Of a stretch of DNA of 22,152 nucleotides, positions 4,022 to 19,753 are shown in pieces; the stretch's first letter is position 1; every line of letters begins with the position of its first letter. The position numbers and the translations under genes are program-made. The stretch is from the IMG/VR virus record IMGVR_UViG_3300020470_001880, positions 1-22,152 of that record. One strand, written 5' to 3'. Source of the stretch: a virus. Below the pieces are notes generated by a model. That model saw only the letters and a program-made list of their open reading frames with translations, did no database searches and was not told the origin of the DNA.

Positions 4022-4351
4022 ATGGCATTAAATAAATCAGTATTAGCTAAAGGACTAGAAGCTGCACTAAATCAAGATTTACCATCTGATTTAGATGAAA
4101 TAGCTAAAAAGAAGAAGAAAAACAAAAAAATAGCTAAAGGAATGGCAGACGCTATAGATTCTTTTGTAAAAAGTGCATCAGTAGATGTTAAGGGATTACA
4201 GATGTTACCTGGAACTTCTACTATGAGTAATCCTGGGCAACCCGTTGTAGCACCTGGAAGTGGTGCTACTACTGGACCTGGAACTGGTATGACAACAGCT
4301 CCTGGAAAACTTAACCCTGCTACAGGTATAGATTGTGCTAAGGTTTATTAG
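4022..4351 (+). CDS. Small Lys- then Gly/Pro-rich protein, tandem paralog 1
   Basis: A 109-residue protein paralogous to its downstream neighbour. The N-terminal part shares 'LNKSVLAK', 'LNQDLPSDL' and a run of lysines ('KKKKKNKKIAKGMADAI'). The middle has 'FVKSAS(V/I)DVKG' followed by 'LPGT'. The C-terminal half is low-complexity Gly/Pro/Thr ('GATTGPGTGMTTAPGKLNPA') and the protein ends in a conserved 'CAKVY'. Short proteins with a helical N-terminus and a glycine/proline tail are common beside baseplate genes in environmental myophages. Their function is not known to me. The context suggests a virion component. The ribosome site is AGGG, seven bases before the ATG. Confidence 0.78.
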   Translation: MALNKSVLAKGLEAALNQDLPSDLDEIAKKKKKNKKIAKGMADAIDSFVKSASVDVKGLQMLPGTSTMSNPGQPVVAPGSGATTGPGTGMTTAPGKLNPATGIDCAKVY

Positions 4352-4361
4352 GGGATAAGTG

Positions 4362-4703
4362 ATGTTGAATAAGTCAGTATTAGCAAAACAATTAGAATCT
4401 GTGTTAAATCAAGATTTACCATCTGATTTGAATGAGATTAAAAAAATAAAGAAGAATAATAAGAAAAAGGCTAAAATGATAGCAGATTCCGTAGATAAAT
4501 TTGTAAAATCTGCATCAATAGATGTTAAAGGAATACAAACATTGCCGGGAACTAAGGTAACATTAAATCCTGGCCAACCTGTTGTAAATGCACCGCCTAT
4601 AGCAGGAGGAGCTGGAGCTACATCAGGACCTGGAACTGGTTTAACAAATTCGCCAGCTAAGATGAATCCAGGTACAGGTATAAATTGTGGAAAGGTATAT
4701 TAG
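4362..4703 (+). CDS. Small Lys- then Gly/Pro-rich protein, tandem paralog 2
   Basis: A 113-residue paralog of the preceding gene, with the same layout: 'MLNKSVLAKQLESVLNQDLP', a basic stretch ('KKIKKNNKKKAKMIADSVD'), 'FVKSASIDVKGIQTLPGT', a Gly/Pro/Ala tail and the terminal 'CGKVY'. A GTG lies directly before the ATG at 4359 and would add one residue, aligning with 'MALNK' of paralog 1. The AGGGG ribosome site (4350-4354) is seven bases from the ATG, so the ATG is preferred. The first two bases of AGGGG belong to the upstream stop region, so translation is probably coupled. Divergence between the two copies suggests an old duplication kept for two roles. Function unknown; virion role inferred from place. 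Confidence 0.78.
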   Translation: MLNKSVLAKQLESVLNQDLPSDLNEIKKIKKNNKKKAKMIADSVDKFVKSASIDVKGIQTLPGTKVTLNPGQPVVNAPPIAGGAGATSGPGTGLTNSPAKMNPGTGINCGKVY

Positions 4704-4713
4704 GAGAATATAG

Positions 4714-5214
4714 ATGCCAGAAAAACCATTAGATATAATATTAGATGATACTTTAAGAGTTGGTGGGTCACAAGTATTTGACCAAGATGAAAGTATTGCT
4801 ATAGGAGTAGCTCTTCCAATAACAAAAGGTAATGCTGGATATTTTCAACAAGAATATATTACTCTTCACCAATTGAAACATAATATAAAAAACTTAATAC
4901 TTACTATGAAAGGTGAACGACCAATGTTGCCAACATTTGGTACGGAGATATATTCTACTTTATTTGAACAAGACGATGGTAGTATGTCAGAAAAAATAAA
5001 AGAGTCTGTAATAGAAGCTTTAAAGATTTGGTTACCATTTGTAAAACTAGAAAATTTACAAGTATTGAGTTTAGAGGGAGATGCACCTGGTGAAAAAAAT
5101 GATGGTGTAGAGACACATAGAAATTCATTTAATATTAAATTGGATTTCAGTTTACAGAACGACCCAACAATGTTAGAGTCAATATCTCTACAAGTAACAG
5201 GACCAGAAATATAG
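4714..5214 (+). CDS. 25: Baseplate wedge protein gp25-like
   Basis: A 166-residue member of the gp25/GpW baseplate family. The diagnostic block is 'GERPMLPTFGTEIYSTLFE' (67-85), matching the family's 'GERpxxPxfGxxlxxxLFE'. It is preceded by the helix 'LHQLKHNIKNLILTMK' (51-66) and followed by the helix 'IKESVIEALKIWLPFVKLEN' and the closing beta strands. In T4, gp25 with gp6 and gp53 makes the core of the wedge and helps start sheath polymerisation. It is slightly longer than T4 gp25 (132 aa), with an N-terminal extension of about 35 residues. It shares a nearly identical ribosome-site leader (TAGGAGAATATAG) and N-terminus with the next gene, gp6. The order gp25-gp6 is conserved in contractile systems. 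Confidence 0.93.
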   Translation: MPEKPLDIILDDTLRVGGSQVFDQDESIAIGVALPITKGNAGYFQQEYITLHQLKHNIKNLILTMKGERPMLPTFGTEIYSTLFEQDDGSMSEKIKESVIEALKIWLPFVKLENLQVLSLEGDAPGEKNDGVETHRNSFNIKLDFSLQNDPTMLESISLQVTGPEI

Positions 5215-5224
5215 GAGAGTATAG

Positions 5225-7147
5225 ATGCCAGAACAAACTAGATTAGATAGTAAAAAAGAAGTTAGATATTTAAACAGAGACTTCTCAACATTTAAAAAAT
5301 CTCTAATAGATTTTTCTAAAGTCTATTATCCAAATTCATATAATGATTTTAATGAATCATCTCCTGGTATGATGTTCATTGAAATGGCAGCATATGTTGG
5401 TGATGTTTTGTCATTTTATATTGATAAACAATTTAAAGAAACTCTTTTACCTTATGCAGAAGAAAGGGAAAATGTAATAGATTTAGCTAAAACACTAGGA
5501 TATAGACCAACAGCGGCTACACCATCAACAGTAAAATTAGATGTGTATCAAACTGTTCCATCAAAGACAGACGATGGTGGTATAACATATTATCCAGATA
5601 TGACTTATGCTCTTCAAGTAGATTCTGGTGTTGTTTGTAGAGCGGCTTCAAACTCTACAAATTTTAGAACATTGGATGTTATTGATTTTAAATATTCTAG
5701 TTCAATGGACCCGACAGAAATAACAATTTACGAGTTCAATGATACTACACCAACTTTATATCTTTTGAAAAAACAAGTAGAGGCTGTTGCAGGAACACTT
5801 GAAACAGAAACATTTACTTTTGGAAATGCTAAAAAATATGATACTAGAACTTTAGCTGCAAATGATGTAAATGAAATAATCTCAGTAACAGATTCTGATG
5901 GTAATAGTTGGTATGAAGTTCCTTATCTAGCACAAGATACTGTTTTTATAGATGTTGAGAATAGTTCAAAGAATGACCCAGACTTAGCTCAATATTCAGA
6001 AGATACACCATATTTGTTAAAACTTAAAAAGACTGCTAGAAGATATGTATCAGAACTTACATCAAATAATTTAACAAAGATTACTTTTGGAGCTGGAGTT
6101 TCTGATTCACCTGATGAAGTTATAACACCGAATCCAACTAATGTTGGTTCACAACTTGCAACTGGTATATCTCGATTAGATAAAGCATTTGACCCAGCTA
6201 ATTTTTTATATACAAGAACTTATGGACAAGTTCCACAGAACACAACATTAACCGTTAATTATTCTAGGGGTGGTGGTGTACAATCAAATGTACCTCAAGG
6301 TGATATTACTGAAGTTACAACTATGAATACACTTAATGACCAAACATCTATACCAAACATATCAGAGTTTAATAATGCTGTTGCTAGTTTTGCAGTAACT
6401 AATACAGAACCAGCTACTGGTGGTAAAGGTCAAGAGTCAATTGATGAAATTAAATTTAACGCTTTGGCAGAATATCCATCACAACAAAGATGTGTTACTA
6501 AGGAAGACTATATTGTAAGATGTTATTCTTTACCAGCTAAATATGGTAATTTAGCTAAAGTATATATAGCACCAGATGAACAACTAAATGCAAAAGATGG
6601 TACTGATGGAATGGAAAAACCAGTAAAAATAGCAAATCCATTCTCTATGAATTTTTATGTTCTTGGATATGACTCTAATAAAAAACTAGCTAATGTTAGT
6701 GATGCTGTAAAAGAAAATTTAAGAATTTATTTATCTCAATATAGAATATTAACTGATGCTATTAATATACTTAATGGTTACATTGTTAACATCGGTATTG
6801 ATTTTGAAGTTATTGTTTTACAAGGATATAACAAAAGAGAAGTTGTTCTAAAATGTATGGAAGAAATAAAACAATTTTTTGATATAGACAAATGGCAAAT
6901 AAATCAACCAATCATAAAACCTGATTTAAATTACAGATTATCTTTGGTTGAGGGTGTTCAAAATGTTACTATGTTAGAAGTAAGAAACATAACTGAAGAT
7001 GGATACTCAAGTAACTTGTATGACTTGAAAGAAGCTGAACCTTTGACTGAAGAAGGGAAACCAACTGGTATTATATATCCATCACTTGACCCTATGATTT
7101 TTGAATTAAAAAATCCTAGTAAAGATATAAAAGGGAGAGCTAGATAA
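5225..7147 (+). CDS. 6: Baseplate wedge protein gp6-like (baseplate J family)
   Basis: A 640-residue protein close to T4 gp6 in length (660 aa). The N-terminal block 'YLNRDFSTFKKSLIDFSKVY' (15-34) and 'ESSPGMMFIEMAAYVGDVLS' (44-63) is typical of the family. It is followed by 'FYIDKQFKETLLPYAEERENV' in the 64-84 region and 'LAKTLGYRP' (87-95). A later conserved core around residues 408-435 reads 'FNALAEYPSQQRCVTKEDY'. gp6 forms the ring that ties wedges together in the baseplate and changes shape when the tail contracts. The ribosome site TAGGAG overlaps the gp25 stop codon. The last base of the stop overlaps the next start (TAATG). Confident on family; exact domain borders not resolvable by eye. 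Confidence 0.95.
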   Translation: MPEQTRLDSKKEVRYLNRDFSTFKKSLIDFSKVYYPNSYNDFNESSPGMMFIEMAAYVGDVLSFYIDKQFKETLLPYAEERENVIDLAKTLGYRPTAATPSTVKLDVYQTVPSKTDDGGITYYPDMTYALQVDSGVVCRAASNSTNFRTLDVIDFKYSSSMDPTEITIYEFNDTTPTLYLLKKQVEAVAGTLETETFTFGNAKKYDTRTLAANDVNEIISVTDSDGNSWYEVPYLAQDTVFIDVENSSKNDPDLAQYSEDTPYLLKLKKTARRYVSELTSNNLTKITFGAGVSDSPDEVITPNPTNVGSQLATGISRLDKAFDPANFLYTRTYGQVPQNTTLTVNYSRGGGVQSNVPQGDITEVTTMNTLNDQTSIPNISEFNNAVASFAVTNTEPATGGKGQESIDEIKFNALAEYPSQQRCVTKEDYIVRCYSLPAKYGNLAKVYIAPDEQLNAKDGTDGMEKPVKIANPFSMNFYVLGYDSNKKLANVSDAVKENLRIYLSQYRILTDAINILNGYIVNIGIDFEVIVLQGYNKREVVLKCMEEIKQFFDIDKWQINQPIIKPDLNYRLSLVEGVQNVTMLEVRNITEDGYSSNLYDLKEAEPLTEEGKPTGIIYPSLDPMIFELKNPSKDIKGRAR

Positions 7148-8313
7148 TGCATATATTTACTTATATTGATAAAGATGCTACTATTTATCAAAAATCTAAA
7201 ATTTTAGGAGTAGCTCCAAGTGAAGAACAGAATCAAAATACTGGTTTAGATTCTATATTAGAATTACAAAAATATAAAATTGATGGTGTGTTTTACAATT
7301 CTAGAGCGTTGGTTTATGCAGATTTAACATCATTATCTGCTGAAATAACTGCAGGTACAATACCAACAACAGCTACACATTCTTTATTACTATATAGTGC
7401 TAGAGCATATGATATTCCATTGAAATATAATATTGAAGCATATCCAGTATCTGAATCTTGGGATATGGGAACAGGTAAAGCTTCAGATGAACCTATAACT
7501 CAAGATGGTTGTAGTTGGAAATATAGAGATGGTTATTTAGATAGTAGTGGTAGTCATTGGGCTACATCATCCTTCTCTGAAGAAGCTGGTGAGTATTCTG
7601 CTACTGGTTCTGCAAACTTTGGTGGTACATATTATAAAGGACATAATGGTGATACAGATTTATATACACATACTCAAGCTTTTGAATTTGAAACTGCAGA
7701 TGTAAGTATAGATATTAGTACATCGGTTAATGCTATTAGAGCTAATACATTTGTAAATAATGGATTTATTTTGAAGAGAACTGATACTGAAGAGAATAAT
7801 AACGCACCATATGGTAACTTACAATTCTTTTCACGAGACACACATACAATTTATATTCCAAGAATAGAAACAAAATGGGATGATTCTGTTTGGTCAACTG
7901 GTAGTTTAAGTGAATTGGATATGAGTAAGGATATAATACTTTATATGAAAGGTTTAAAACCAGAATATAAAAATACATCAGTTGAAAAATTTAAAGTATG
8001 TGGTAGGAATAGAATTGTAGCTAAAACATATGCTACAGAATCAGGTTATTTAACATCAAACTACTTACCGAGTAGTTCTGTTGATGGTACAATGGGAACA
8101 TTCTACTCTGTGAGAGATGCATCAACAGATGAAGTATTGATTGATTTTAATAATTGTACAAAAGTTAGTTGTGATTCTGATGGTAACTTTTTTAACTTTA
8201 GATTAAGTACATTACAACCTGAAAGATATTATAAATTTTTATTTAAAGTAGTTAGTGGTTCAACAACTCAAATTTTTGATGATAATAAATTTCAATTTAA
8301 AGTCGTGAGGTAA
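7147..8313 (+). CDS. Baseplate-associated structural protein with DNRLRE-like beta-sandwich
   Basis: A 388-residue protein in the position of T4 gp7/gp8, but not recognisably like them. The N-terminal 250 residues follow the pattern of DNRLRE-type beta-sandwich domains. 'DKDATIYQ' (about 8-15) leads to 'NSRALVYADLTSL', then 'HSLLLYSARAYDIPLKYNIE', then 'YPVSESWDMGTGK' and a late 'NGFILKR' before 'FFSRDTHTIYIPRIETKWDD'. That last block matches the 'F.S.e......P.L.v.y' ending of the fold. Some members of this fold bind polysaccharides. The C-terminal 130 residues are also beta-rich. The protein overlaps the gp6 stop by one base, so it is probably translated by coupling. A role as an outer wedge or fibre-anchor protein is inferred. 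Confidence 0.75.
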   Translation: MHIFTYIDKDATIYQKSKILGVAPSEEQNQNTGLDSILELQKYKIDGVFYNSRALVYADLTSLSAEITAGTIPTTATHSLLLYSARAYDIPLKYNIEAYPVSESWDMGTGKASDEPITQDGCSWKYRDGYLDSSGSHWATSSFSEEAGEYSATGSANFGGTYYKGHNGDTDLYTHTQAFEFETADVSIDISTSVNAIRANTFVNNGFILKRTDTEENNNAPYGNLQFFSRDTHTIYIPRIETKWDDSVWSTGSLSELDMSKDIILYMKGLKPEYKNTSVEKFKVCGRNRIVAKTYATESGYLTSNYLPSSSVDGTMGTFYSVRDASTDEVLIDFNNCTKVSCDSDGNFFNFRLSTLQPERYYKFLFKVVSGSTTQIFDDNKFQFKVVR

Positions 8314-8315
8314 AT

Positions 8316-11267
8316 ATGGCTCAAGAAAGAAATATAGTTCCAAATCTTTATACAAGTGGTGGAGAGTTTAAATTAAAATCAGCACAGAATGGTGCACCTG
8401 GTGAAGAGTATATTGGTAGTTTTCACTATGATGTTGATTTAGATAGATACTATACTTTCTCAACTCCTGAAATAGGATTACAATCTAGTGAAGAAATAGT
8501 ATTGATAGACCCTAATATGAGAGATGAGAATGGTTATCTTATAGCACCATATAATGTTAAAAAGAATTATATGTTAAAGTTATCTCGAAAAAAATATGAG
8601 GATGTGAGAGAAGTAATCGATACAACAATTACAGAATTAGCTCCAGATATTCCTGTTGTACCTGAATTAACAATTGAAGAAAGAATTGAATTATTAAAAG
8701 GAGAGTTCTCTGATTTAAAAGTTCATATGTTTGACCAAGATTTAGATTTATTGATAAGAGAATCATTATTAGAACATAGTACTATATTAACAAGAGGTTT
8801 TACAGATGAGGTAGTTTTAAACTATATGGATATAGGTCACTTCGGTGTTGAAATGAAAGGTTCTAGTGCTACCGCAGAAGAAGGTGAGTTAGGAGATTGG
8901 CCATTTGTTACTATAAAGATTAATAATACAATAGTTTTTTCAGACCAAATAGCTCACGATGATTATAGGTGGTATAACTTTACACCAATAGTTTCACAAG
9001 AAGATGAACAACAGATGATAGAAATTAATTTTAATAATGATGTTAGTAATGAAGGTGGTGATAGAAATGTATTTATTAGAGCTATCAAAAACCAAGTACT
9101 TCCTTATCATAGATATGCAATTAATCCAGACATTGTCGAAGTAGATACAATAATAATCCCTCAAGTAACATCTTCAGAAGCTCCACAAGGTGACGGAACT
9201 GCTAATGAAATGACTATGGTACCAGAAGTTCCTTATGACCACGAACAACCTTATGCTGGATATGAAGAAAATTATTTTGAAATAAGAAATGAAGATACGG
9301 ATAGTGAAAAATCTACTCTTAAAGATTTCTTTGGAAATGATGCTAGTAATACTAATGTTCGTTTATATGATGTAGATGGTATAGCTGAAGTAAACAAATA
9401 TCCTAATGATGTTAATAGTTATGCTGGTAAGTTTAAAGGAGTTATGCGTGAAAATGGTACGGTTAAGTTTGATTTAAAAACCGATTGGTTTCAACAGAGT
9501 CTTCCACCAACACCTATTGAGTTTACTACTGATGATTTTCAAATAGGAAACATTAAGAATACTAAAATAGATTTAACCCAGACTCAACTACAACTTGAAA
9601 TGCAAGAAACGGCTATAGAAGAGTTAAAAAGAAAGTTAAATCAAGAGAATGAAGAATTTGAAGCTAGAGCAGAAGCTGCAGAAGCTGTTAGTGGTAGTCA
9701 AGCCGCTCAAATACAGGCTATGAAAGCTTCTATAAAGTCAATGTCTGAAAAATATTTTGAAGAGTGGAATGGAAAGTTTGGTGATGAGGAACGAGGGTAT
9801 AGTATGAGGTATAATGCTAGATTAGAAGCTAGTACGACTGCAGGAGCTCCTTGGGCAGGTAGTCAGAGACCAAAGTTCTGGTATGCTGACCCAGATTATG
9901 AAGATTCTATCCAAGATAATACTACAGCAGATTCACCTTTAATGATACCTAAATATCTTGGTAGTGGAGGCCCATTGGGTGATGTTCACGCATATCCTAT
10001 GGGTGATGGAGAAGAGGCTTCTGAAGGTTATGGTAAGATTAGAATGGATTATTATGCTGGTAATGCTCCTATATCACCTGAAGGATGGCCTAATGAGAAA
10101 CAAAGAATAGGTATTAGAGCTAAAGCTAATAGTTATAGAGGATGGCCAAGAATAAAGATTTATAACAAAGGTGCACCAGGAAATGATTTAGTAGGTCAAG
10201 TATCTATTGATTCTTATGAATGGAAAATATATTGGGTAGAATTAAATCTTGGTGATGTAGGTATTGAGAATAAAAATATAGAATTATTTTTTAAATTTGA
10301 TAATGATGATACTTCTTCATATAGAAAAAGAAAATGGTGGGGTAAGAAGTATAGAGTATACAGACACGATGTAACTGGTCACGATAGAGATGTATGGATA
10401 AGTCATTTGGTTAGAACAGACGGGTATCAGATTCCATTAGCTAAAGAATATAGTCCATATATGGATTCTTCAATGTTAAGAACTGAAGAAGGTGAAGATA
10501 TGGCCATTGATGGTAATGAGGAAACATATAAATATATGAGAGCTCAATGGGTTAATGTTAATAACACGCAAGTATTAACTTATCAACCTCCCTATCGAAG
10601 AGTTTATGGTCATTGGCACTGGTGGAATCCTTGGCATAAAAGATGGGTTCAATCTGAACCAACTTGGCCAGGAAGATTACCTCCAGCTGGAAAGTTAGAT
10701 AACAATGGTGGTATAAGAGTAACGATACCAGCTACTTCAGAATGGTTGTTTGAAAAATTAGATGAAGCTACCGTAGGGCCAAATAAATTAGCTCATATTA
10801 CTTTGGGTGGTCTAGGAGAAGCTGATAACGCTGGAGCAAATGGTATTGATAATATGAATGATAGGCGTGGTATTTATATTCTTCCATATCATAGATATAA
10901 ATTAGAGTTTTGTGCACATATAGAGTCTGGTATAGAATTATCAGATGGAACATTCACAACATCAGAAACACAAGCATCTAATAATAAATTTGCAGTTAGA
11001 GTTGCTGATACTAGAAATGGTGCTGAATCTGCACCTAATCCATATCCAGGCACAAAAGGATATGCGTGGGAAGTTTATCAAGAATTTGAAGCTGAAGAAA
11101 ATTGGAAAAAATTTGAAATGAATTTCGAAGGAAGACCTGGTTTACAAGGTGGAACAAAAGTTTATGTACAATTTGTACAAGGTGTTGGTGATAATGGAGA
11201 ACCACAAAGATTGTGGATTTCTGAAATAAGAATCTACGGGCCGTTTGAAGAAACAACAATGTATTAG
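8316..11267 (+). CDS. Large baseplate/adsorption protein with a CBM60-like module and a coiled coil
   Basis: A 983-residue multidomain protein. The N-terminus 'LYTSGGEFKLKSAQNG' (11-26) resembles other baseplate-associated proteins of environmental phages. Residues about 165-260 read like a calcium-dependent carbohydrate-binding module of the CBM36/60 type. The pattern is 'DWPFVTIKINNTIVFSDQIA' (194-213), a tyrosine-rich strand, then 'INFNNDVSNEGGDRNVFIRA' (237-256) with the characteristic ND...DRN loop. Residues about 415-490 form a coiled coil ('LQLEMQETAIEELKRKLNQE'). Residues 764-786 hold an extreme aromatic cluster ('YGHWHWWNPWHKRW'). The last 130 residues look like a jelly-roll sandwich. 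I infer a trimeric or long peripheral baseplate component that touches cell-surface sugars. It is not similar to T4 gp7-gp10 as far as I can see. Confidence 0.78.
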   Translation: MAQERNIVPNLYTSGGEFKLKSAQNGAPGEEYIGSFHYDVDLDRYYTFSTPEIGLQSSEEIVLIDPNMRDENGYLIAPYNVKKNYMLKLSRKKYEDVREVIDTTITELAPDIPVVPELTIEERIELLKGEFSDLKVHMFDQDLDLLIRESLLEHSTILTRGFTDEVVLNYMDIGHFGVEMKGSSATAEEGELGDWPFVTIKINNTIVFSDQIAHDDYRWYNFTPIVSQEDEQQMIEINFNNDVSNEGGDRNVFIRAIKNQVLPYHRYAINPDIVEVDTIIIPQVTSSEAPQGDGTANEMTMVPEVPYDHEQPYAGYEENYFEIRNEDTDSEKSTLKDFFGNDASNTNVRLYDVDGIAEVNKYPNDVNSYAGKFKGVMRENGTVKFDLKTDWFQQSLPPTPIEFTTDDFQIGNIKNTKIDLTQTQLQLEMQETAIEELKRKLNQENEEFEARAEAAEAVSGSQAAQIQAMKASIKSMSEKYFEEWNGKFGDEERGYSMRYNARLEASTTAGAPWAGSQRPKFWYADPDYEDSIQDNTTADSPLMIPKYLGSGGPLGDVHAYPMGDGEEASEGYGKIRMDYYAGNAPISPEGWPNEKQRIGIRAKANSYRGWPRIKIYNKGAPGNDLVGQVSIDSYEWKIYWVELNLGDVGIENKNIELFFKFDNDDTSSYRKRKWWGKKYRVYRHDVTGHDRDVWISHLVRTDGYQIPLAKEYSPYMDSSMLRTEEGEDMAIDGNEETYKYMRAQWVNVNNTQVLTYQPPYRRVYGHWHWWNPWHKRWVQSEPTWPGRLPPAGKLDNNGGIRVTIPATSEWLFEKLDEATVGPNKLAHITLGGLGEADNAGANGIDNMNDRRGIYILPYHRYKLEFCAHIESGIELSDGTFTTSETQASNNKFAVRVADTRNGAESAPNPYPGTKGYAWEVYQEFEAEENWKKFEMNFEGRPGLQGGTKVYVQFVQGVGDNGEPQRLWISEIRIYGPFEETTMY

Positions 11268-11277
11268 AGGAAAATAG

Positions 11278-14200
11278 ATGAGTTTAAAAGATTATAAAAA
11301 TTATGATGAAATAAAAGATAATAGAACTAAAACTCAAGGTAGTTTTGTTGATACTAAAACTAAAGCTCTTATAGAGGTTGGTGTAGAATTTCCATTTGCA
11401 CATTTTGGTATAGATAGTGGTTCAGGAAGACAAGTAGCTGATGATAATATTGAATTTCATGCATATACAATTGATGATAACCCACTTGGTAGTAAAGAAA
11501 CTAATTGTCACTATGAGGTAGCTTCAAAAAAAGGTGGAGATGGAGCGGCAATATTAAACTTAAAACCAGTAGAGGAATTAAATGAGTTAGGTTTTAACTT
11601 AGGTAGATATAAATATGTTTATAATATCTATAAAAAACTTACACATAATAACTTATACATACATCAAATATCACCATCAAGAACAGAGGTATTATTAAAA
11701 CCTGTAAAAACTAGAAATTTCATAAAAGACTTTCAGACAAATGTAGAATTTATGCATTTTGCAAACAAAGTTAATATTGGAGCTGAAGTTGGTTTTGAAA
11801 TGTTTGATGTTAATCAAGATGGTAATGTTAGTGTTCTTGATATTGTTGAAGGTTTAAACCCAGATAATGAGTTTGTACAACCACCACTAACATCTGCAGA
11901 AGCTTGGATTATTTCAGATTATATATTAGGATATAATCCAGAACCTAACTATGTTGGTAATGATACTTTTGGAGACCCAAGTAATCCAAGAGTTAAATTA
12001 ACATTAGATTATTTAGAAAAAAATGGAATAGATGTTAGAAATCCTGATAATCCTCACGGAAGTAATGAAGAAGCTTGGTTAAAATTAGCAAATAGATTAT
12101 TAGAAAACTATAAACTATTTGATAAATTAAATCCAGATGATTTAAACATATATTTAAATTTTGGTGGAAATAATTTCTCATTAGTTACAAATTGGATGCA
12201 GGATAAATTTAATTATCCAGAACAACCACACGGAATTGTTGTAAAATTACTAGAACCATTATCAGAAGAGATTATTGAAAGACAACAATTAAGTCTTGTT
12301 CAATTTTATAGTCCACCTGTTGTTGACAAGATTAGTTTAGTTGGAACACCACTTACTCAAAGAAAATTAAATGTTTTAGCTCCACATAATAAAAATGTAG
12401 ATGTGGGTTATCTAAAACCAAAACAAATGGAAGATTATGAAACTTGGGAAGAAATATTAGGATACAATCCAACTACATCTCAAAACATAATAGATTTTTA
12501 TTTATCAGGTAGTCATCTTGAACAAAGAGTCAATATAGACTATACTGATTATCGTAATTTTGTAAAGTTTGGTTCTGCATATGAAAGACTAGCTAATTTT
12601 AAATATAAATTAGGATTAATAGAAACTTATGATTCTAAGTCAGATGCATATTTTGTTATGAGTGGTTCACATTCTTCTTATCAACGATATAAAGGTTTGA
12701 AAGAACAAGTAATAAGTGGATTAGATGGATATGAAAAATTCTTATATTATGAAAGTGGTTCTTATATATCAGAGAGTGGATTGGGTGCAGTTGGTACTCT
12801 TGATTTTCAAGATGCTACGGCTCCAAAAATGAACTCATCAAAACCATATATTTTATATTCAACCACATCTTCACAATTTACTACTTGGTATGATAATCAA
12901 TTATCTAATGCTTTAAATCACGATAATTTTAATGAAGATTCTTTACAAGATAATGTTCCTATGCACTTAAAAAGTGATAATTCAAATGCAGAATATTTAT
13001 TATTTTTAAATATGATAGGTCAACATTTTGATACGGTTTGGACATATGCTAAACATATGACTGATATTGCAGATAGAACTCATAATATAAATACTTCTTA
13101 TAATTTTTCACCACATATTAGTGGTTCAAGAAATCACGAAGGACTTGATAAGGGATTAACATATTTTATAGCTCGTTCAAAAGGTTTAAAATTAAATGAT
13201 GGACAAGATTTAGTTAAATTGTGGAAATATGCTTTAGGTGAAAATCAATTTAGTGCTGGTACATTAACCGTAAGTGGAAATAAAATAACTATTGCAGATA
13301 CTGCATTTTCTAACGACTTGGAAGATGGTACTTTATACATACCAGCTTCAGAGAATCCATCAGGTTCTGCTTTTGAAGCTACACTAACTAATGTATATCA
13401 TACATCTGCATCAATATCACCAGCATATAATGGTGAATTTAGTTCTAGTAATTATTCAATTACTTATGATATTGAGGGTTCAGTAGAAAGTAGTTTAAGT
13501 GCAAATGATTATACAAAAGAGATATGGAGAAGATTATTAAACAACTTACCATATCTTTTGAAAACAAAAGGAACTGCTCGTTCTATTAAAGCTCTAATAT
13601 CTTGTTATGGTATACCACAAACAATATTAGACATTAGAGAGTATGGAGGCCCAACCGATGTAGGTAAACAAATTTTTTCTAAATCATATTTTGGGTATGG
13701 TTTACATTATACAGGTAGTAATCAGTATGTTGAAGTACCGTGGAAAAAATCTTCAAAAACAAGTAGGACTCCTGATTCATTACAATTTAGATTTGCATTT
13801 GATATAGATAAGAATAAAGAAGATGTTGTCTATAATTTTGGTTCAGTAACAAATATGTATCAACCACATATTAGTAGTTCGGAAGGTAATCATAATTCAG
13901 TTAGATTAGCTACACTAGGAGGAGGAGCTACAGGTAGTGCTAATTGGGAAATAAGAGCCAATACATTAACTGGTAGTGCTCTTCACGATATGGGTAAAGC
14001 TCCTGCTTCACCAAGTGTTGATTTTATACAAGGAACTGGTATACCTTCTTATGCTAGTTTCAATGCAATATCAGCTTCAACAGACCATTGGGGATACTTA
14101 TCATTTAACTTATCAGGTTCTGAGGGATATAAAACAATATTATCAGATGTATATCCTATATTTGATGGTGGATTTTGGCAAGTAGTATTACAAAGAACTT

Positions 14201-16065
14201 CTGGTTCAGATTCTAAAAATATAGCTCAAACATATGAGTTACATTTAAAAAGAGCTGAGGATAATAAGATAACATTCTCATCTGTGACATCTATGTCACT
14301 ATCATCATCTCAGACTTCTTATATGCATAATTATACTTCATCTGATTATCTATACATTGGTAATTCAGGTTCTGATATAGATGGTGGATTCTTTAGTGGA
14401 AGTATACAAGAAGTTAGATTATGGAATAAAAAATTAGAAGATAAATCTATTAATATTCATACAAGAGCTCCTTTTTCTTATGCTGGAGGAACAACAAGTT
14501 CTTTTTATGACAACTTAGAAGCTAGATTTCCTTTTAACGAAATATATGAACACGAAACAGTAGGAGTTTCAACACCTAATGTTTATTCTAGTTCAAATAT
14601 AGCTAATATTACAACTTATATGACAACAGCTTCATTAGTTAATTTTGGAACTACAAATAAATCTTATAAAGAATTTGAAATACAAAATAATTTTCAATTG
14701 CCTAATATAGGAGCTAACAGATTAACATCAAATAAGATTAGAACAGAAGATACTTATCTTGATGGAAACTTAAATGTTAAGATAAGGTCTGAAAAAAGAG
14801 CTCACGATTATGCACCAATAGACTCTCCAAAGTTAGATGTATACTTTTCTCCATCACAACCAATTAATGAAGACATTATTGCAGATTTCGCTGGATTGGA
14901 ACTAGATGATTTCTTGGGAGACCCAGAGGATATTTATAAAGACAAATATACAGAGTTAGAAAAAGTTAGAAATTTATATTTTGATAGAGTTGATAATTTA
15001 AATAATTTCTTTGATTATATTAGATTAATACAAATGTATGATTCAACTTTATTTGACCATATTAAAAGTTTAATTCCACATAGAGCACACGAAAGTGTTG
15101 GATTATTAATAGAACCAAATATATTAGAAAGACCAAAATTCTCAGGATGGAAACCTCTTGTTAGAGAAAATAAATATTTTCAAAACGATAAGGTAGAAAA
15201 TGTATATGGTGAGGATATAGCAACAGATTACACTGGTAAAGGAACGGGAGCTTCACATTCATTAGATAGAAGTGTAGAATTTTTAAGACATACTGGTTCA
15301 GTTGATATGGGTGTTGATAATATGACTGCAGAAGCTGATTTATATAATGTAGTAGGTGGTGAACTTTTTAATGATACGGTAACTTTAGGAAATTCCTTAA
15401 TTGTAGAAGTTCAAAAAACAGGAAGTTTAACAGCTCCAACAGTTGATGATTATAGTCCAATATTTTCAACAAAGTTTCCTATATCTAGTTCTTTAGTAGT
15501 TACTATGTCGGCAGATTTTTCTAATGGAGATGTTAGACCAACTGGTTCAGTAGAAGATGGTTTACAAAATAGTTTAACAACTACATATTTAGCAGATATT
15601 ACAACTAAGGATACACACCAATCTTCTTCATATATAGTTGGTTTTGGTGGTGCTGGTTATGCATCACATTCTGAAGATTGGCATGGTAATCCTGAAAAAG
15701 AAGGATTACATCCATTTGTTCATAAACATATTTTAAGTAATAGATATTTAATACATAGTTCATCTAAGTATGAGTGTGTATTAACGGATGGTACTATAAC
15801 AGAAAAACCAATGGTGCCTTATGGTTATTGGGATAATGATAGAAGTATAACAGGTTCAATAGATTCTGGTATGGCAGGTAAAGGATTCTTACCAGCAGAA
15901 TGTACTCCACCTAATACTTATGCATATAAATCTCAAAAATATATGGGTACAAAAAATAAAATAACAACTACTTATGATGGAAAGGACGCATTTGAGGTTC
16001 ACGAGACTACGCCGAATGTTTTAGTAGTGTCAGATACTTCACCAAATACATTACAAGTACAATAA
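11278..16065 (+). CDS. Giant baseplate/adsorption protein with dockerin-like Ca loop and LamG domain
   Basis: A 1595-residue protein, the largest of the window. The N-terminal about 140 residues are beta-rich. Residues 177-188 ('DVNQDGNVSVLD') form a dockerin/EF-hand type loop with oxygen ligands at all expected places (D177, N179, D181, N183, S185, D188). The following helix reads 'AWIISDYILGY'. A helical linker follows. Residues about 756-795 contain 'LPYLLKTKGTARSIKALISC' and 'YGIPQTILDIREYGG', a block I recall from large structural proteins of environmental T4-like phages. Residues about 815-1050 form a LamG/concanavalin-type sandwich ending 'FSGSIQEVRLWNKKL'. The C-terminal 500 residues are of unknown fold. 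Position after the gp6 group and size suggest a baseplate-peripheral or receptor-binding protein. TAGAGG at the upstream stop is its ribosome site. Confidence 0.8.
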   Translation: MSLKDYKNYDEIKDNRTKTQGSFVDTKTKALIEVGVEFPFAHFGIDSGSGRQVADDNIEFHAYTIDDNPLGSKETNCHYEVASKKGGDGAAILNLKPVEELNELGFNLGRYKYVYNIYKKLTHNNLYIHQISPSRTEVLLKPVKTRNFIKDFQTNVEFMHFANKVNIGAEVGFEMFDVNQDGNVSVLDIVEGLNPDNEFVQPPLTSAEAWIISDYILGYNPEPNYVGNDTFGDPSNPRVKLTLDYLEKNGIDVRNPDNPHGSNEEAWLKLANRLLENYKLFDKLNPDDLNIYLNFGGNNFSLVTNWMQDKFNYPEQPHGIVVKLLEPLSEEIIERQQLSLVQFYSPPVVDKISLVGTPLTQRKLNVLAPHNKNVDVGYLKPKQMEDYETWEEILGYNPTTSQNIIDFYLSGSHLEQRVNIDYTDYRNFVKFGSAYERLANFKYKLGLIETYDSKSDAYFVMSGSHSSYQRYKGLKEQVISGLDGYEKFLYYESGSYISESGLGAVGTLDFQDATAPKMNSSKPYILYSTTSSQFTTWYDNQLSNALNHDNFNEDSLQDNVPMHLKSDNSNAEYLLFLNMIGQHFDTVWTYAKHMTDIADRTHNINTSYNFSPHISGSRNHEGLDKGLTYFIARSKGLKLNDGQDLVKLWKYALGENQFSAGTLTVSGNKITIADTAFSNDLEDGTLYIPASENPSGSAFEATLTNVYHTSASISPAYNGEFSSSNYSITYDIEGSVESSLSANDYTKEIWRRLLNNLPYLLKTKGTARSIKALISCYGIPQTILDIREYGGPTDVGKQIFSKSYFGYGLHYTGSNQYVEVPWKKSSKTSRTPDSLQFRFAFDIDKNKEDVVYNFGSVTNMYQPHISSSEGNHNSVRLATLGGGATGSANWEIRANTLTGSALHDMGKAPASPSVDFIQGTGIPSYASFNAISASTDHWGYLSFNLSGSEGYKTILSDVYPIFDGGFWQVVLQRTSGSDSKNIAQTYELHLKRAEDNKITFSSVTSMSLSSSQTSYMHNYTSSDYLYIGNSGSDIDGGFFSGSIQEVRLWNKKLEDKSINIHTRAPFSYAGGTTSSFYDNLEARFPFNEIYEHETVGVSTPNVYSSSNIANITTYMTTASLVNFGTTNKSYKEFEIQNNFQLPNIGANRLTSNKIRTEDTYLDGNLNVKIRSEKRAHDYAPIDSPKLDVYFSPSQPINEDIIADFAGLELDDFLGDPEDIYKDKYTELEKVRNLYFDRVDNLNNFFDYIRLIQMYDSTLFDHIKSLIPHRAHESVGLLIEPNILERPKFSGWKPLVRENKYFQNDKVENVYGEDIATDYTGKGTGASHSLDRSVEFLRHTGSVDMGVDNMTAEADLYNVVGGELFNDTVTLGNSLIVEVQKTGSLTAPTVDDYSPIFSTKFPISSSLVVTMSADFSNGDVRPTGSVEDGLQNSLTTTYLADITTKDTHQSSSYIVGFGGAGYASHSEDWHGNPEKEGLHPFVHKHILSNRYLIHSSSKYECVLTDGTITEKPMVPYGYWDNDRSITGSIDSGMAGKGFLPAECTPPNTYAYKSQKYMGTKNKITTTYDGKDAFEVHETTPNVLVVSDTSPNTLQVQ

Positions 16066-16067
16066 TT

Positions 16068-16075
16068 GATAAATA
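16068..16075 (+). promoter_or_regulatory. Late-promoter-like octamer GATAAATA
   Basis: GATAAATA is one base from the T4 late consensus TATAAATA and fits the NATAAATA form described for cyanophage late genes. It begins three bases after the stop of the 1595-aa gene and lies about 110 bp before the next gene. A gp55-like sigma factor that would read such a site is encoded in this window. AT richness makes such an octamer fairly common by chance, so the support is its intergenic position. Confidence 0.5.
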
Positions 16076-16099
16076 AATGATTAAAAATTGATATTGACT

Positions 16100-16113
16100 A
16101 TATTTATATATGA
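16100..16113. promoter_or_regulatory. 14-bp AT motif, copy 2, promoter candidate before the second structural group
   Basis: ATATTTATATATGA, identical to 1672-1685. In both places it stands shortly before a group of virion genes. TATAAT occurs 14 bases downstream (16128-16133), though without a well-spaced -35 element. The 120-bp gap (16066-16185) otherwise holds no gene, no G+C-rich hairpin and no T run, so no terminator is seen between the two structural groups. Confidence 0.42.
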
Positions 16114-16185
16114 ACAAAAGTATTGTTTATAATGAAAGAAAGTTATAGAATATATCAAATAGAAAAATTATATAGGAGATAAAAG

Positions 16186-16875
16186 ATGGCATATCTTGAT
16201 AATACTACGATTACGGTAGATGCTATACTTACGAAAAAAGGTCGTGAGAGATTAGCTTCGGGTGGAAAAAGTGTGAATGGTTTTCACATTACTCAATTCG
16301 CTTTAGCAGACGATGAGATTGATTACTCATTGTGGGACCCGACACATCCAAATGGTTCAGCTTATTATGGTTCAGTTATAGAAAACACACCATTAATGGA
16401 AGCTGTATCGGATGAGACTCAAATAATGAGGTCTAAACTTTTAACATTACCAAAAGGAACACCAAAAGTTCCTCTAATTGATGTTGGGTTAGATTTAGGT
16501 TCGACTGGTATGATTACATTAACAGTAACACAGAATACAGAAGTTACTTTATCTCCAGTAACTGCTAATATAGCTGGTGCTGACCAAACATTAGGATATA
16601 CATTTATTCTACATAATGGTCAATTCGCATCACTTAATATAGTGGATGGTGTTGATGCTAATTTAGTAGGAACCGTACCATCATTCTTAGGTGACATTAC
16701 ACAACAATATACAATTAGTGAAGTTGGTAGAGTAATGAAATTAAATCCAAAGAATATTATAGGAACAACGAACAAATTTACGAAAATTACAATTATTGGT
16801 AATGAGACTGGTGCTCAGAAAACATTGGATATTAAGGTAGTACCTCAATCTGAAAACACCAATGCTACAAACTAA
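16186..16875 (+). CDS. Virion structural protein, conserved N-terminus and Ig-like C-terminal part
   Basis: A 229-residue protein. Its N-terminus 'MAYLDNTTITVDAILTKKGR' (1-20) and 'NGFHITQFALADDEIDYSLW' (31-50) is, from memory, a conserved signature of a structural protein found beside baseplate genes in many environmental myophages, with no experimentally assigned role known to me. Residues about 105-225 are beta-rich with an Ig-like look ('GMITLTVTQNTEVTLSPVTA', then 'TKITIIGNETGAQKTLDIKV'). A strong ribosome site (TAGGAG) lies ahead. It opens the second structural group after the promoter gap and is followed by two related fibre-like proteins. I infer that it is a tail or baseplate component. 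Confidence 0.75.
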   Translation: MAYLDNTTITVDAILTKKGRERLASGGKSVNGFHITQFALADDEIDYSLWDPTHPNGSAYYGSVIENTPLMEAVSDETQIMRSKLLTLPKGTPKVPLIDVGLDLGSTGMITLTVTQNTEVTLSPVTANIAGADQTLGYTFILHNGQFASLNIVDGVDANLVGTVPSFLGDITQQYTISEVGRVMKLNPKNIIGTTNKFTKITIIGNETGAQKTLDIKVVPQSENTNATN

Positions 16876-16895
16876 TAAAATAGGAGAATAGAGAA

Positions 16896-18077
16896 ATGGC
16901 AAATGTAAGTGTAGACCAAATACTGGAACAACTAGCCACGGCGATAATGGATGACGCACAAAATGAAAACATTCTAGGAATGCAAAATGCTTCAGCTGGT
17001 GGTAATTTTTTAAATCAGATAGTAAGACCAAGAGTAGAGTCATTACTTTCTACCCAAGCTACAATAGATGCTACAGTATCAAAGGCTTTTAGTAAGTTTA
17101 ATATGTCAGATGACTTAGTAGAAAATGTGTTACAAAAAGTAACAACACCACTATGGTCTCAAGCAACATCTTCTCTTACAACATTCGAAACTTCTTCTGC
17201 TCAGACAGGTTCAACACAAGGTCAGTATTATTGGGATGTATATAATTTACCTCCTGGAGCTGAAAATTCTGCAGTACAATTCTCTGTGACTTATGGTCAC
17301 TATGCTGGAAGTGGTTCAGGTGGAATAACAGATAATAGACCTTATAAAGCTATTTATTCTCAGCATGTTAACTCTGTGTTAAATCCAGGTGATACTAGAT
17401 TTACATTTGACCCGTTAGTTGGTTCTGATAATTATGAAGATGATTTTTATGCAATAAACATATCAAGAGCACTTTATAAAGAAAGACTTGACCCTGGAAA
17501 TTGGGAATTAAAGTTAAGTGGTTCAGTTGGTGGTTCTCCTACTCAAAACGCATTAACCTTTACCGATGATAGTGGACAAAATACAGCGGCTGGAACTGGT
17601 TCAGGTGCTAGAGTATTTAATATTGTTAGTGGTACAATTGATGGTGGTCAAGTAGGAACAACTAAATATGGATTTGTTTATCCAGATGTTGGATTAATTA
17701 TATTTAGTGGACAGATAACTGCATCAATTGGTTGGACAACATCAGCAGGAACAGACTATGTTAATCATCAAAGATTCTTCGCGTCAGTAAAAGATGGTCA
17801 ATACTTCAAAGCTCGTTCAGAAGAAGATGTAACATCGACACATTATTTTTGTAGAGTACATAGTAGTGAATATAATTATTCAAATAATCCAACTTGGGCA
17901 AATCAGACAACTGGTGTACCTGTAAATGATGAGTTTAAGACAGACCCTAAAGCTTATATAACAACAGTTGGTCTTTATAATGACGCTAAAGAACTTCTAG
18001 CTGTAGCTAAGTTATCTAAACCATTATTAAAATCATTTAGTAGAGAAGCCGTAGTAAAAGTTAAACTTGATTTCTAA
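16896..18077 (+). CDS. Virion structural protein with shared ER-PG / GLYN scaffold
   Basis: A 393-residue protein. The N-terminal 90 residues are helical. Residues about 120-210 contain 'AVQFSVTYGHYAGSG' and 'INISRALYKERLDPGNWELK' (188-207). A glycine-rich stretch follows, then 'YGFVYPDVGLIIF' (258-270). The last 42 residues, 'YITTVGLYNDAKELLAVAKL' onward, end 'VKVKLDF'. The ERxxPG, G-x-(V/I)-Y and terminal GLYN modules recur in the next gene, so both belong to one family of phage structural proteins. These modules are common in large environmental phages, in my recollection. Function unknown; a tail, fibre-base or decoration component is inferred from neighbours. The ribosome site TAGGAG lies well upstream, with a weaker AGAGAAATG just before the start. 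Confidence 0.75.
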   Translation: MANVSVDQILEQLATAIMDDAQNENILGMQNASAGGNFLNQIVRPRVESLLSTQATIDATVSKAFSKFNMSDDLVENVLQKVTTPLWSQATSSLTTFETSSAQTGSTQGQYYWDVYNLPPGAENSAVQFSVTYGHYAGSGSGGITDNRPYKAIYSQHVNSVLNPGDTRFTFDPLVGSDNYEDDFYAINISRALYKERLDPGNWELKLSGSVGGSPTQNALTFTDDSGQNTAAGTGSGARVFNIVSGTIDGGQVGTTKYGFVYPDVGLIIFSGQITASIGWTTSAGTDYVNHQRFFASVKDGQYFKARSEEDVTSTHYFCRVHSSEYNYSNNPTWANQTTGVPVNDEFKTDPKAYITTVGLYNDAKELLAVAKLSKPLLKSFSREAVVKVKLDF

Positions 18078-18106
18078 ATTGGATGTAATAAAATGGGAAC
18101 GAATAA

Positions 18107-19753
18107 ATGTCAATATTTAAGCGATTACAGCCAAATGAAATAACGATAACACCTTTTAAAGCACATAAAAAATTCGCCCCAACAGTAGACATTGAAGATA
18201 GTTCAAGTGGAATTGTCATTACTGAAGGCGTTAATTATACTGGTCATTTTTATACTGCTGAAGAAAAGAATACAAATGGAATGTATAAAAGGAGTGTTTA
18301 TCATTTAGTTAATAAGTTACATTATGCTTATGAACTTGACCCTGCACAAACTCTTACAAATAATACACGAGAAGTTTTAGAAAAAAATTATATTACAACT
18401 GCAGAAGATTGTCCTTTTCCAACACATACAAGTGCCTCTATAACACATATCTTAATACCACAGAAAAAATTTGGAGAAAGAATAAAACCTGGAACAGTAA
18501 AAATTACTAGTAAAAATGATGAAGTCTCACCATCTTTAAATGGTGAAATATTTTATGACGATAGTCTAGGTAATTTATATAGTAATACAATTTCATCATC
18601 TTGGGTTTCTAGTAATTCACAATCTTATTGGCCACCAACGGGTAGTCTAAAGGGTTATTGGAAATTTGATAATTCAACAGACCCATATATAGATTATTCT
18701 GGAAATGGAAATAGAGCAGAACATACAGGTTCAGATTGGACAACCTATTATGATACGGATATTAGTGCTTCTAACTTGGAGGGTTTATCTATAAAAACAC
18801 CTGAAACAAGTAGTGGTATTAGATTGATGAGACATAAAAAATTACTAGACCAAAATAAACAAACTTGGACATTATGGTTTAAACCTACTGGTCATACAAA
18901 TGGTAATTTAGGAGCTAGAATAATAACAAGAGATTTATCAGAATACTTTGGATTAAAAGAACAAGGTGATTATTCAGGTGATGGTAAGTGTGGGGCTAGA
19001 ATATATCGTGGTCAAGCTAGTTCTAGTCTTTGGACTGATGCTTTAATTTCAGGAAGTTGGCACTTCGCTGCAATTTCAATCGATTATACAAATTCTAGTC
19101 AGAGCTCTTATTTATGGAATGGAGAGCAGTGGTTTACGGATACTGGTGGAACTGGTATAGATAGTTGGACAGGTGGTAATCACGATGGTTTATCTCACGG
19201 ATTGGGTTATAAAAGAGCAGTTGTATTAGGTTGTAATTCTGAACACCATACACAGATGCAATTTAAAAATAATTGTTTCTCTGGTAGTTATGATGAGGTT
19301 AGATATTATGATACAAATTTAAGTCAAGAACAAATATATACCTTAAAAGATTATCCAAGAGGAAAACAACAATCATTTATTGGTGATGTTTGGTACAATC
19401 AGGGGGAGATAGTAGTTAAGACTCAAAATGAAAATAAATATCTAGCTTCAGGTACAGGTTCAAATGGTTTTGAATTGGAATGGGATGCAACAGTTCAAAT
19501 ATTTGAACACGAATATAAATGTACTGCCGATGTTGATGAATTTAATAAAACAATAAACAGAAGTATAATTAAAGAAAGTTTAAATAATAATGAATTAATT
19601 GGTGTAGCTTCACATTCTTTATTTTCACCATATGTTACCACAATAGGTTTATATAATCAAGATTATGAACTATTGGCTATTGGTAAATTAGCTAGTCCAA
19701 TCAAGACATCAACAGAAACACCAATGACATTTGTAGTAAGAATAGATTTATAG
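18107..19753 (+). CDS. Virion structural protein with an inserted LamG lectin-like domain
   Basis: A 548-residue protein built on the same scaffold as its upstream neighbour. It has 'ILIPQKKFGERIKPGTVKIT' (115-134) and 'IFYDDSLGNLYS' (148-159), then a LamG/concanavalin domain (about 181-414), then 'GDVWYNQGEIVV' (426-437) and the terminal 'YVTTIGLYNQDYELLAIGKL' (509-528). The LamG domain shows typical features: 'LKGYWKFDNS' (181-190), 'DYSGNGNRAEHTG' (196-208), 'TWTLWFKPTG' (253-262), 'GSWHFAAISID' (316-326) and 'CFSGSYDEVRYYDTNLS' (390-406). Such domains in phage tail proteins usually bind sugars or stabilise fibres. GGGA eleven bases before the start is the likely ribosome site. I infer a receptor-contacting or accessory baseplate protein. 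Confidence 0.8.
   Translation: MSIFKRLQPNEITITPFKAHKKFAPTVDIEDSSSGIVITEGVNYTGHFYTAEEKNTNGMYKRSVYHLVNKLHYAYELDPAQTLTNNTREVLEKNYITTAEDCPFPTHTSASITHILIPQKKFGERIKPGTVKITSKNDEVSPSLNGEIFYDDSLGNLYSNTISSSWVSSNSQSYWPPTGSLKGYWKFDNSTDPYIDYSGNGNRAEHTGSDWTTYYDTDISASNLEGLSIKTPETSSGIRLMRHKKLLDQNKQTWTLWFKPTGHTNGNLGARIITRDLSEYFGLKEQGDYSGDGKCGARIYRGQASSSLWTDALISGSWHFAAISIDYTNSSQSSYLWNGEQWFTDTGGTGIDSWTGGNHDGLSHGLGYKRAVVLGCNSEHHTQMQFKNNCFSGSYDEVRYYDTNLSQEQIYTLKDYPRGKQQSFIGDVWYNQGEIVVKTQNENKYLASGTGSNGFELEWDATVQIFEHEYKCTADVDEFNKTINRSIIKESLNNNELIGVASHSLFSPYVTTIGLYNQDYELLAIGKLASPIKTSTETPMTFVVRIDL

Follow-up and report, generated by a model that had tools for sequence, protein, structure and literature searches.

A conserved baseplate block with carbohydrate-binding-type modules in a distant T4-like myovirus

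Background

T4 gp7 and P2 gpI represent the same baseplate wedge protein, BW3, to which the receptor-binding proteins attach (PMC10811340). In the Bacillus myophage Vp4, the wedge protein Gp119 carries carbohydrate-binding modules (CBMs) that are missing from its Deep-Blue homologue, Gp177, and Gp119 decorates host cells whereas Gp177 does not (PMC11406892). Baseplates with sugar-binding-type modules are known in a few other phages. Here we describe a baseplate block of this general type, whose modules form an unusual set that is in part changing fast, in the IMG/VR virus record IMGVR_UViG_3300020470_001880. This record is a fragment of a distant T4-like myovirus, which was analysed over its whole length of 22,152 bases (hereinafter the window). 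We propose that the block encodes a conserved contractile-tail baseplate that is probably decorated with auxiliary modules of the glycan-binding type, for which we infer sugar binding.

The tail proteins of Vp4 (Gp119), Deep-Blue and A511 resemble those of the window in that CBMs occur in a conserved wedge protein and are missing from a close homologue, with more CBMs in neighbouring tail proteins. The Vp4 modules are CBM16/xylanase-type CBM folds in a phage of Gram-positive hosts, whereas the window has CBM96, CBM60 and LamG folds with predicted binding in a distant T4-like lineage. The same pattern of presence and absence as in Vp4 is seen here: the LamG insert of the large wedge gene g14 is missing from the Flavobacterium phage immuto, and that of g17 is patchy.

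Results and discussion

Gene order and the wedge core

Starting from gp25, the genes of the block are all on the + strand and run in the order gp25, gp6, g12 (388 amino acids), g13 (983), g14 (1595), g15 (229), g16 (393) and g17 (548), with open reading frames at the positions given in a preliminary description of this DNA. By gp6 identity, the closest named relatives (42-49%) are Microcystis phage Mel-JY01 (49%), the uncultured phage LR756508 (43%) and immuto (42%), followed by cyanophages at ~24%. The block is common to ~35 IMG/VR loci, representing ~25 distinct related loci; many of the loci are near duplicates and, hence, their counts exaggerate independence. Locus L002 is Mel-JY01 and L012 is on the same contig as L009. 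Models of the KGT, LamG, CBM96, CBM60 and dockerin-like families were built from the window family and then run over the related loci; E-values of pairwise hhalign runs refer to single comparisons. The core of the block comprises the following features:

4714..5214, + strand: gp25-like baseplate wedge protein/sheath initiator (Pfam GPW_gp25, E 1.8e-10; PHROG baseplate wedge subunit, E 1.3e-16)
5225..7147, + strand: gp6-like wedge protein, the scaffold (PHROG 219, E 8e-24; hhalign to T4 gp6, E 7e-5)
11278..16065, + strand: g14, predicted wedge protein of the P2 gpI/T4 gp7 type (BW3), into which modules are inserted
13486..13671, + strand: KGT domain of g14 (residues 737-798), the wedge-family signature (hhalign to P2 gpI family)

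The KGT stretch of g14, which contains 'LPYLLKTKGTARSIKALISCYGIPQTILDIREYGG' and is shared by all related loci that extend over this portion of the gene, matches the P2 gpI family in hhalign (P 85.7, E 5.5e-6); the g12, g15, g16 and g17 families gave no such match in the same comparison. A hidden Markov model of this stretch also recovers tail protein I from two phages, Vibrio phage X29 (E 2e-5) and, with a weak match, Fels-2 (E 0.01). A similar KG motif (STKGIEASYKFLFKVLYNEEVEIEIE) is found near residue 737 of T4 gp7, and the region of this motif is where a cyanophage S-SKS1 protein aligns with the T4 gp7 family (P 70.5). As the direct hhalign comparison of T4 gp7 with g14 is not significant (P 0.6), the connection between g14 and gp7 goes through P2 gpI and the shared KG motif; cyanophage gp7-like proteins are not significantly linked to g14. 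On the basis of its KGT domain, g14 is assigned as the gp7/gpI-type third wedge protein. Within the wedge, BW3 forms the (gp6)2-gp7 heterotrimer and anchors the receptor-binding proteins. Like the other members of the BW3 family (T4 gp7, P2 gpI, pyocin PA0619 and Milano gp30; PMC10811340), g14 combines a KGT domain with a position 3' of gp6. Unlike them, it is 1595 amino acids long and is separated from gp6 by two genes; its KGT domain is followed immediately by a LamG insert, and a dockerin-like loop lies close to its N-terminus.

The order gp25-gp6-g12-g13 slot-g14 is kept in the relatives. The blocks of immuto and Mel-JY01 share this order and have homologous gp25, gp6, g12 and g14-g17, but their slots have no CBM60 protein; immuto lacks both LamG inserts, whereas Mel-JY01 has both. 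The preliminary description had held that T4 genes 7-11 are unrecognisable here. At the sequence level this stands for gp8-gp11, which gave no match in PHROGs or in hhalign runs against single T4 sequences (P <= 1.2; the T4 gp6 positive control was recovered in the same test with P 62.9), but not for gene 7, since g14 carries the P2 gpI/T4 gp7 KGT domain. The structures of T4 gp7 and gp8-gp11 are not among the fold matches, though the list for g14 is filled by LamG and hence uninformative. The same description had left it undecided whether the sugar-binding-like modules take the place of ordinary wedge proteins or are added to them. With gp25, gp6 and a gp7/gpI-type g14 all present, the former is not supported: the modules are additions to a wedge core.

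A CBM96-type sandwich in g12

7147..8313, + strand: g12, conserved two-domain baseplate-block protein, its start overlapping the end of gp6
7147..7884, + strand: g12 residues 1-246, CBM96/DNRLRE beta-sandwich (8wab and 7vbo folds; NF033679)
7915..8310, + strand: g12 residues 257-388, Ig-like C-terminal domain (AlphaFold model; SiiE Ig domain, Z 6.2, weak)

The g12 gene occurs in every related locus covering its position, directly after gp6 in the covered relatives, and its product is 34-35% identical to those of immuto and Mel-JY01. The DNRLRE-like sandwich suspected earlier in this protein is borne out by both family profiles and fold matches. NCBIfam NF033679 matches 13 of the 22 family members (best 3.1e-12), with the window protein at E 2.9e-5 and 24.2 bits, under the 34-bit cut-off; Pfam CBM96 matches 5/22 (best 1.5e-7), the window protein not being among them. 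The AlphaFold model of g12 (predicted local distance difference test, pLDDT, 71) matches the chondroitin-sulfate CBM 8wab with Z 15.2 (root-mean-square deviation 3.0, 170 aligned positions) and the alginate-binding CBM 7vbo with Z 12.0 (deviation 3.4, 159 aligned positions). Searches of PDB sequences with the g12, g14 and g16 profiles returned nothing convincing, and a single immuto g12 query did likewise. Thus, g12 has the beta-sandwich fold and family profile of the known CBM96/DNRLRE domains (TM6-N4, PDB 7vbo; 8wab). The CBM96/DNRLRE domain binds alginate and serves as an accessory module of enzymes (PMC9971899); in contrast to the known enzyme-borne versions, that of g12 sits in a phage baseplate-block gene. 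No locus that covers the gene lacks the CBM96 domain, which is 71-76% identical between the window and its near relatives L005, L006 and L009, as against 81-83% for the Ig-like domain.

Two side observations concern this region: the g12 homologue at L016:960-2067 is split across two overlapping frames (a frameshift or sequencing error), and L026:3508-3804 encodes a 98-amino-acid ferredoxin-like open reading frame with two cysteine clusters between g12 and g14.

CBM60-like modules in a variable slot

8316..11267, + strand: g13, variable-slot protein with an anchor and carbohydrate-binding-like modules
8316..8645, + strand: conserved N-terminal anchor of g13 (residues 1-110)
8853..9110, + strand: g13 CBM60 module 1 (residues 180-265; Pfam PF16841), with the FNNDVSNEGGDRNVFI motif at 9030-9077
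10095..10415, + strand: second CBM60-like module of g13 (residues 594-700; profile-profile comparison), with a DRD motif at 10377-10400
10611..10646, + strand: g13 Trp/His cluster HWHWWNPWHKRW, in a variable loop
10686..11264, + strand: g13 C-terminal module (residues 791-983), putatively CBM-like by its sequence pattern

The CBM60-like module that had been noticed in g13 scores over the Pfam cut-off (PF16841 in hmmscan, 29.2 against 28.2 bits), and the same model matches 4/6 members of the g13 family (best 4.5e-12), across which the ND...DRN motif is kept. A second CBM60-like module had been overlooked; in profile-profile comparison it matches the first with P 95.9 and E 6e-9, as against P <= 0.7 for other regions of g13. 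Pfam gave no match for the second or the third, C-terminal, module alone, and CBM_4_9 had no match on this record. CBM60 domains bind glycans in a calcium-dependent manner. With its Pfam profile and ND...DRN motif, g13 is like known CBM60 proteins, but it has two copies in one phage protein, of which the second is degenerate.

The anchor of g13 is kept in 7 loci, and most other relatives have mostly short, unrelated genes in the slot. Overall, slot proteins range from ~60 to 983 amino acids and are mostly unrelated in sequence; Pfam gave no carbohydrate-binding family for other slot genes. Close relatives of g13 had no phage match and were not detected among viral contigs by peptide patterns; they were found solely via neighbouring genes. 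CBM60 itself is patchy, being restricted to the window and four near relatives. Compared with L005/L006/L009, identity drops from 71-73% in the anchor to 40-49% in the modules, with 40-41% for CBM60 and 22-30% for the Trp/His loop region. The Trp/His cluster, also pointed out previously, is real to the extent that its 8 tryptophans or histidines in 12 residues are reached by 0/1000 shuffles of g13; however, it is present in none of the relatives having g13 that were compared (L005-L007). Separately, L034:24-4772 encodes a 1582-amino-acid protein with fibronectin type III repeats, immediately 5' of the homologues of the g13 slot gene and g14.

Inserts in g14 and g17

11755..11967, + strand: dockerin-like single calcium loop and helix of g14 (DVNQDGNVSVLDI at 11806-11844; Dockerin_1, E 0.01 in the window)
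13681..14502, + strand: LamG insert of g14 (residues 802-1075; structure matches; missing in immuto)
16186..16875, + strand: g15, highly conserved baseplate-block protein (N-terminal 100 amino acids 96% identical to L009; homologues in relatives covering it)
16896..18077, + strand: g16, conserved, its C-terminal domain common to g17 (hhalign between the two C-terminal domains, P 99.5, E 3e-23)
18107..19753, + strand: g17, conserved protein with a lineage-specific LamG insert (most relatives without it)
18632..19342, + strand: LamG insert of g17 (residues 176-412; Laminin_G_3, E 3e-5 in the window)

Both LamG domains of the preliminary description are upheld, by different kinds of evidence. The g14 insert is weak by sequence (Pfam, E 5.9e-4); it lies in the better-predicted part of the g14 model and matches LamG/pentraxin-type folds, the 50 best rows having Z 12.6-16.6, led by 4dqa (Z 16.6), followed by the PAPP-A LamG (Z ~15.9) and pentraxins (Z ~14). 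It is present in all loci covering that part except immuto. Identity to L009 is 63% for this LamG, as against 87% for the KGT domain and 73% for the core of g14. The g17 insert is detected directly with Laminin_G_3 (best E in the family, 1.6e-19), is related to the g14 LamG (hhalign, P 89), and occurs only in the window, L012, L010, Mel-JY01 and L034. Between the window and L012, its flanks are 78-81% identical and the LamG 63%.

Dockerin type I domains consist of two calcium-loop-helix repeats. The dockerin-type calcium loop claimed for g14 survives in part: one DxNxDG loop is present and L010 alone (23.4 bits) exceeds the Dockerin_1 cut-off of 22.9, but the feature is degenerate, its second half having no loop, and the window scores 16.4 bits, under the cut-off. 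Thus, g14 does not have the two repeats of dockerin type I. The loop is confined to the window, L006, L007, L009 and L010, and its stretch (63% identity) diverges no faster than its surroundings.

Five consecutive Mel-JY01 proteins (L002:25999-34945) end in the C-terminal domain of g16/g17, which suggests that tail proteins share it for docking. A homologue of g16 was also found in Rhodothermus phage RM378. Apart from these, some g14 homologues have extensions. Those at L030:4108-9141 and L026:4289-9094 have a Hint (Vint) domain in an N-terminal extension (E 3.4e-19), which is unusual for a wedge protein, and those at L013:2489-9160, L016:2381-9199 and L017:2352-9194 exceed 2200 amino acids, with N-terminal extensions of ~1000 amino acids. 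The extensions in L013, L016, L017 and L023 match no carbohydrate-binding family of Pfam, and those of L013, L016 and L017 no Pfam family.

Possible roles of the modules

Several different carbohydrate-binding-type folds do occur in the baseplate block, with some of them patchy and fast-diverging like auxiliary host-contact modules. They amount to four fold types with LamG appearing twice, rather than five different folds, and are not all in consecutive genes, since g15 and g16 lie between the two LamG genes; most of the named domains are nevertheless real. We propose a wedge of ordinary plan, with gp25, gp6 and g14 as the third wedge protein, to which beta-sandwich modules would have been added: CBM96 in g12, two CBM60-like modules in g13, a LamG domain and calcium loop in g14, and a LamG domain in g17. 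With six-fold symmetry, at least six copies of each module would be exposed on the baseplate, both copy number and virion position being predicted. Repeated weak contacts with surface or capsule polysaccharide of the host could then keep the tail close to the cell, its commitment being left to dedicated fibres or spikes. CBM60 and the LamG domains diverge faster than their scaffolds, which, from sequence comparisons, fits the behaviour of host-contact modules.

Several observations weigh against this proposal. Relaxed constraint could also account for the faster divergence; searching the record in six frames with the CBM60 model yielded no candidate, in conflict with hmmscan; and the g14 model is poor outside the LamG domain (mean pLDDT 57). 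Furthermore, TGF-beta prodomains and BAM-complex chains share the CBM96-like fold of g12 (Z 9-10), and the fold by itself is therefore no proof of sugar binding. These last matches also favour a possible, though less probable, explanation, namely that the CBM96 and LamG folds were recruited into the wedge as structural elements (spacers, interfaces or fibre docking sites) that bind no sugar, with only g13 and perhaps g17 contacting the host. CBM96 is present in every g12-covering locus and the g14 LamG in all but immuto, over such dissimilar hosts as Flavobacterium and Microcystis, and 26 columns of the g12 alignment are invariant among its 22 sequences. A structural part is therefore plausible for these two near-universal domains, which may be partly or wholly structural. 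Conversely, CBM96 is the faster of the g12 domains (71 against 83% identity to L009), the g14 LamG, at 63% against 73-87% for the core and KGT domain, is slower only than the linker, and the top structural neighbours are true CBMs for g12 and a putative carbohydrate-binding protein for the g14 LamG. For g12, the data fit a sugar-binding as well as a structural role. That a glycan-binding CBM96 is hard-wired in the wedge of this whole distant T4-like lineage, with its Flavobacterium and Microcystis hosts, while the adjoining swappable g13 slot gains CBM60, so that general adhesion to glycans would be part of the wedge, is a rather doubtful extension of our proposal.

It is improbable that g12-g17 are ordinary tail-fibre or tailspike genes that adjoin the baseplate genes and encode adhesion fibres instead of decorating the baseplate. 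Part of g16/g17 might act as fibre adaptors, with their C-terminal domain recurring in the five Mel-JY01 proteins, and after the block immuto has genes annotated as tail fibre and tail spike; but g14 bears the wedge KGT domain, and g12 overlaps the gp6 stop and stays directly after gp6 in the covered relatives. Glycoside hydrolases and polysaccharide lyases often carry CBM60, CBM96 and LamG domains as accessories, and in principle the modules might be remnants of polysaccharide-degrading enzymes, such as the accessory CBMs of depolymerases. As neither Pfam nor PHROGs detects a catalytic domain in g12-g17, we regard such an origin as highly unlikely.

If the decorating modules do bind sugars, host attachment in this lineage would fall to the baseplate as well as to the fibres, and some of it may evolve through exchange of modules at fixed slots, namely g13 and the insertion points in g14 and g17. 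As a cultured relative naturally without the LamG inserts, immuto offers a comparison, and the modules are separable domains. If they do not, CBM-type folds would be a structural building block of baseplates, which calls for caution in reading host range from such domains.

Neighbouring genes

Genes for RuvC-like, DnaG-like primase and SbcD-like proteins lie 3' of g17. The T4-type late promoter TATAAATA shows no enrichment. Preceding gp25 in the window are two tandem paralogous small genes (4022-4351 and 4359-4703, 109 and 114 amino acids), both of which map to one site in L005, L008, L010 and L011.

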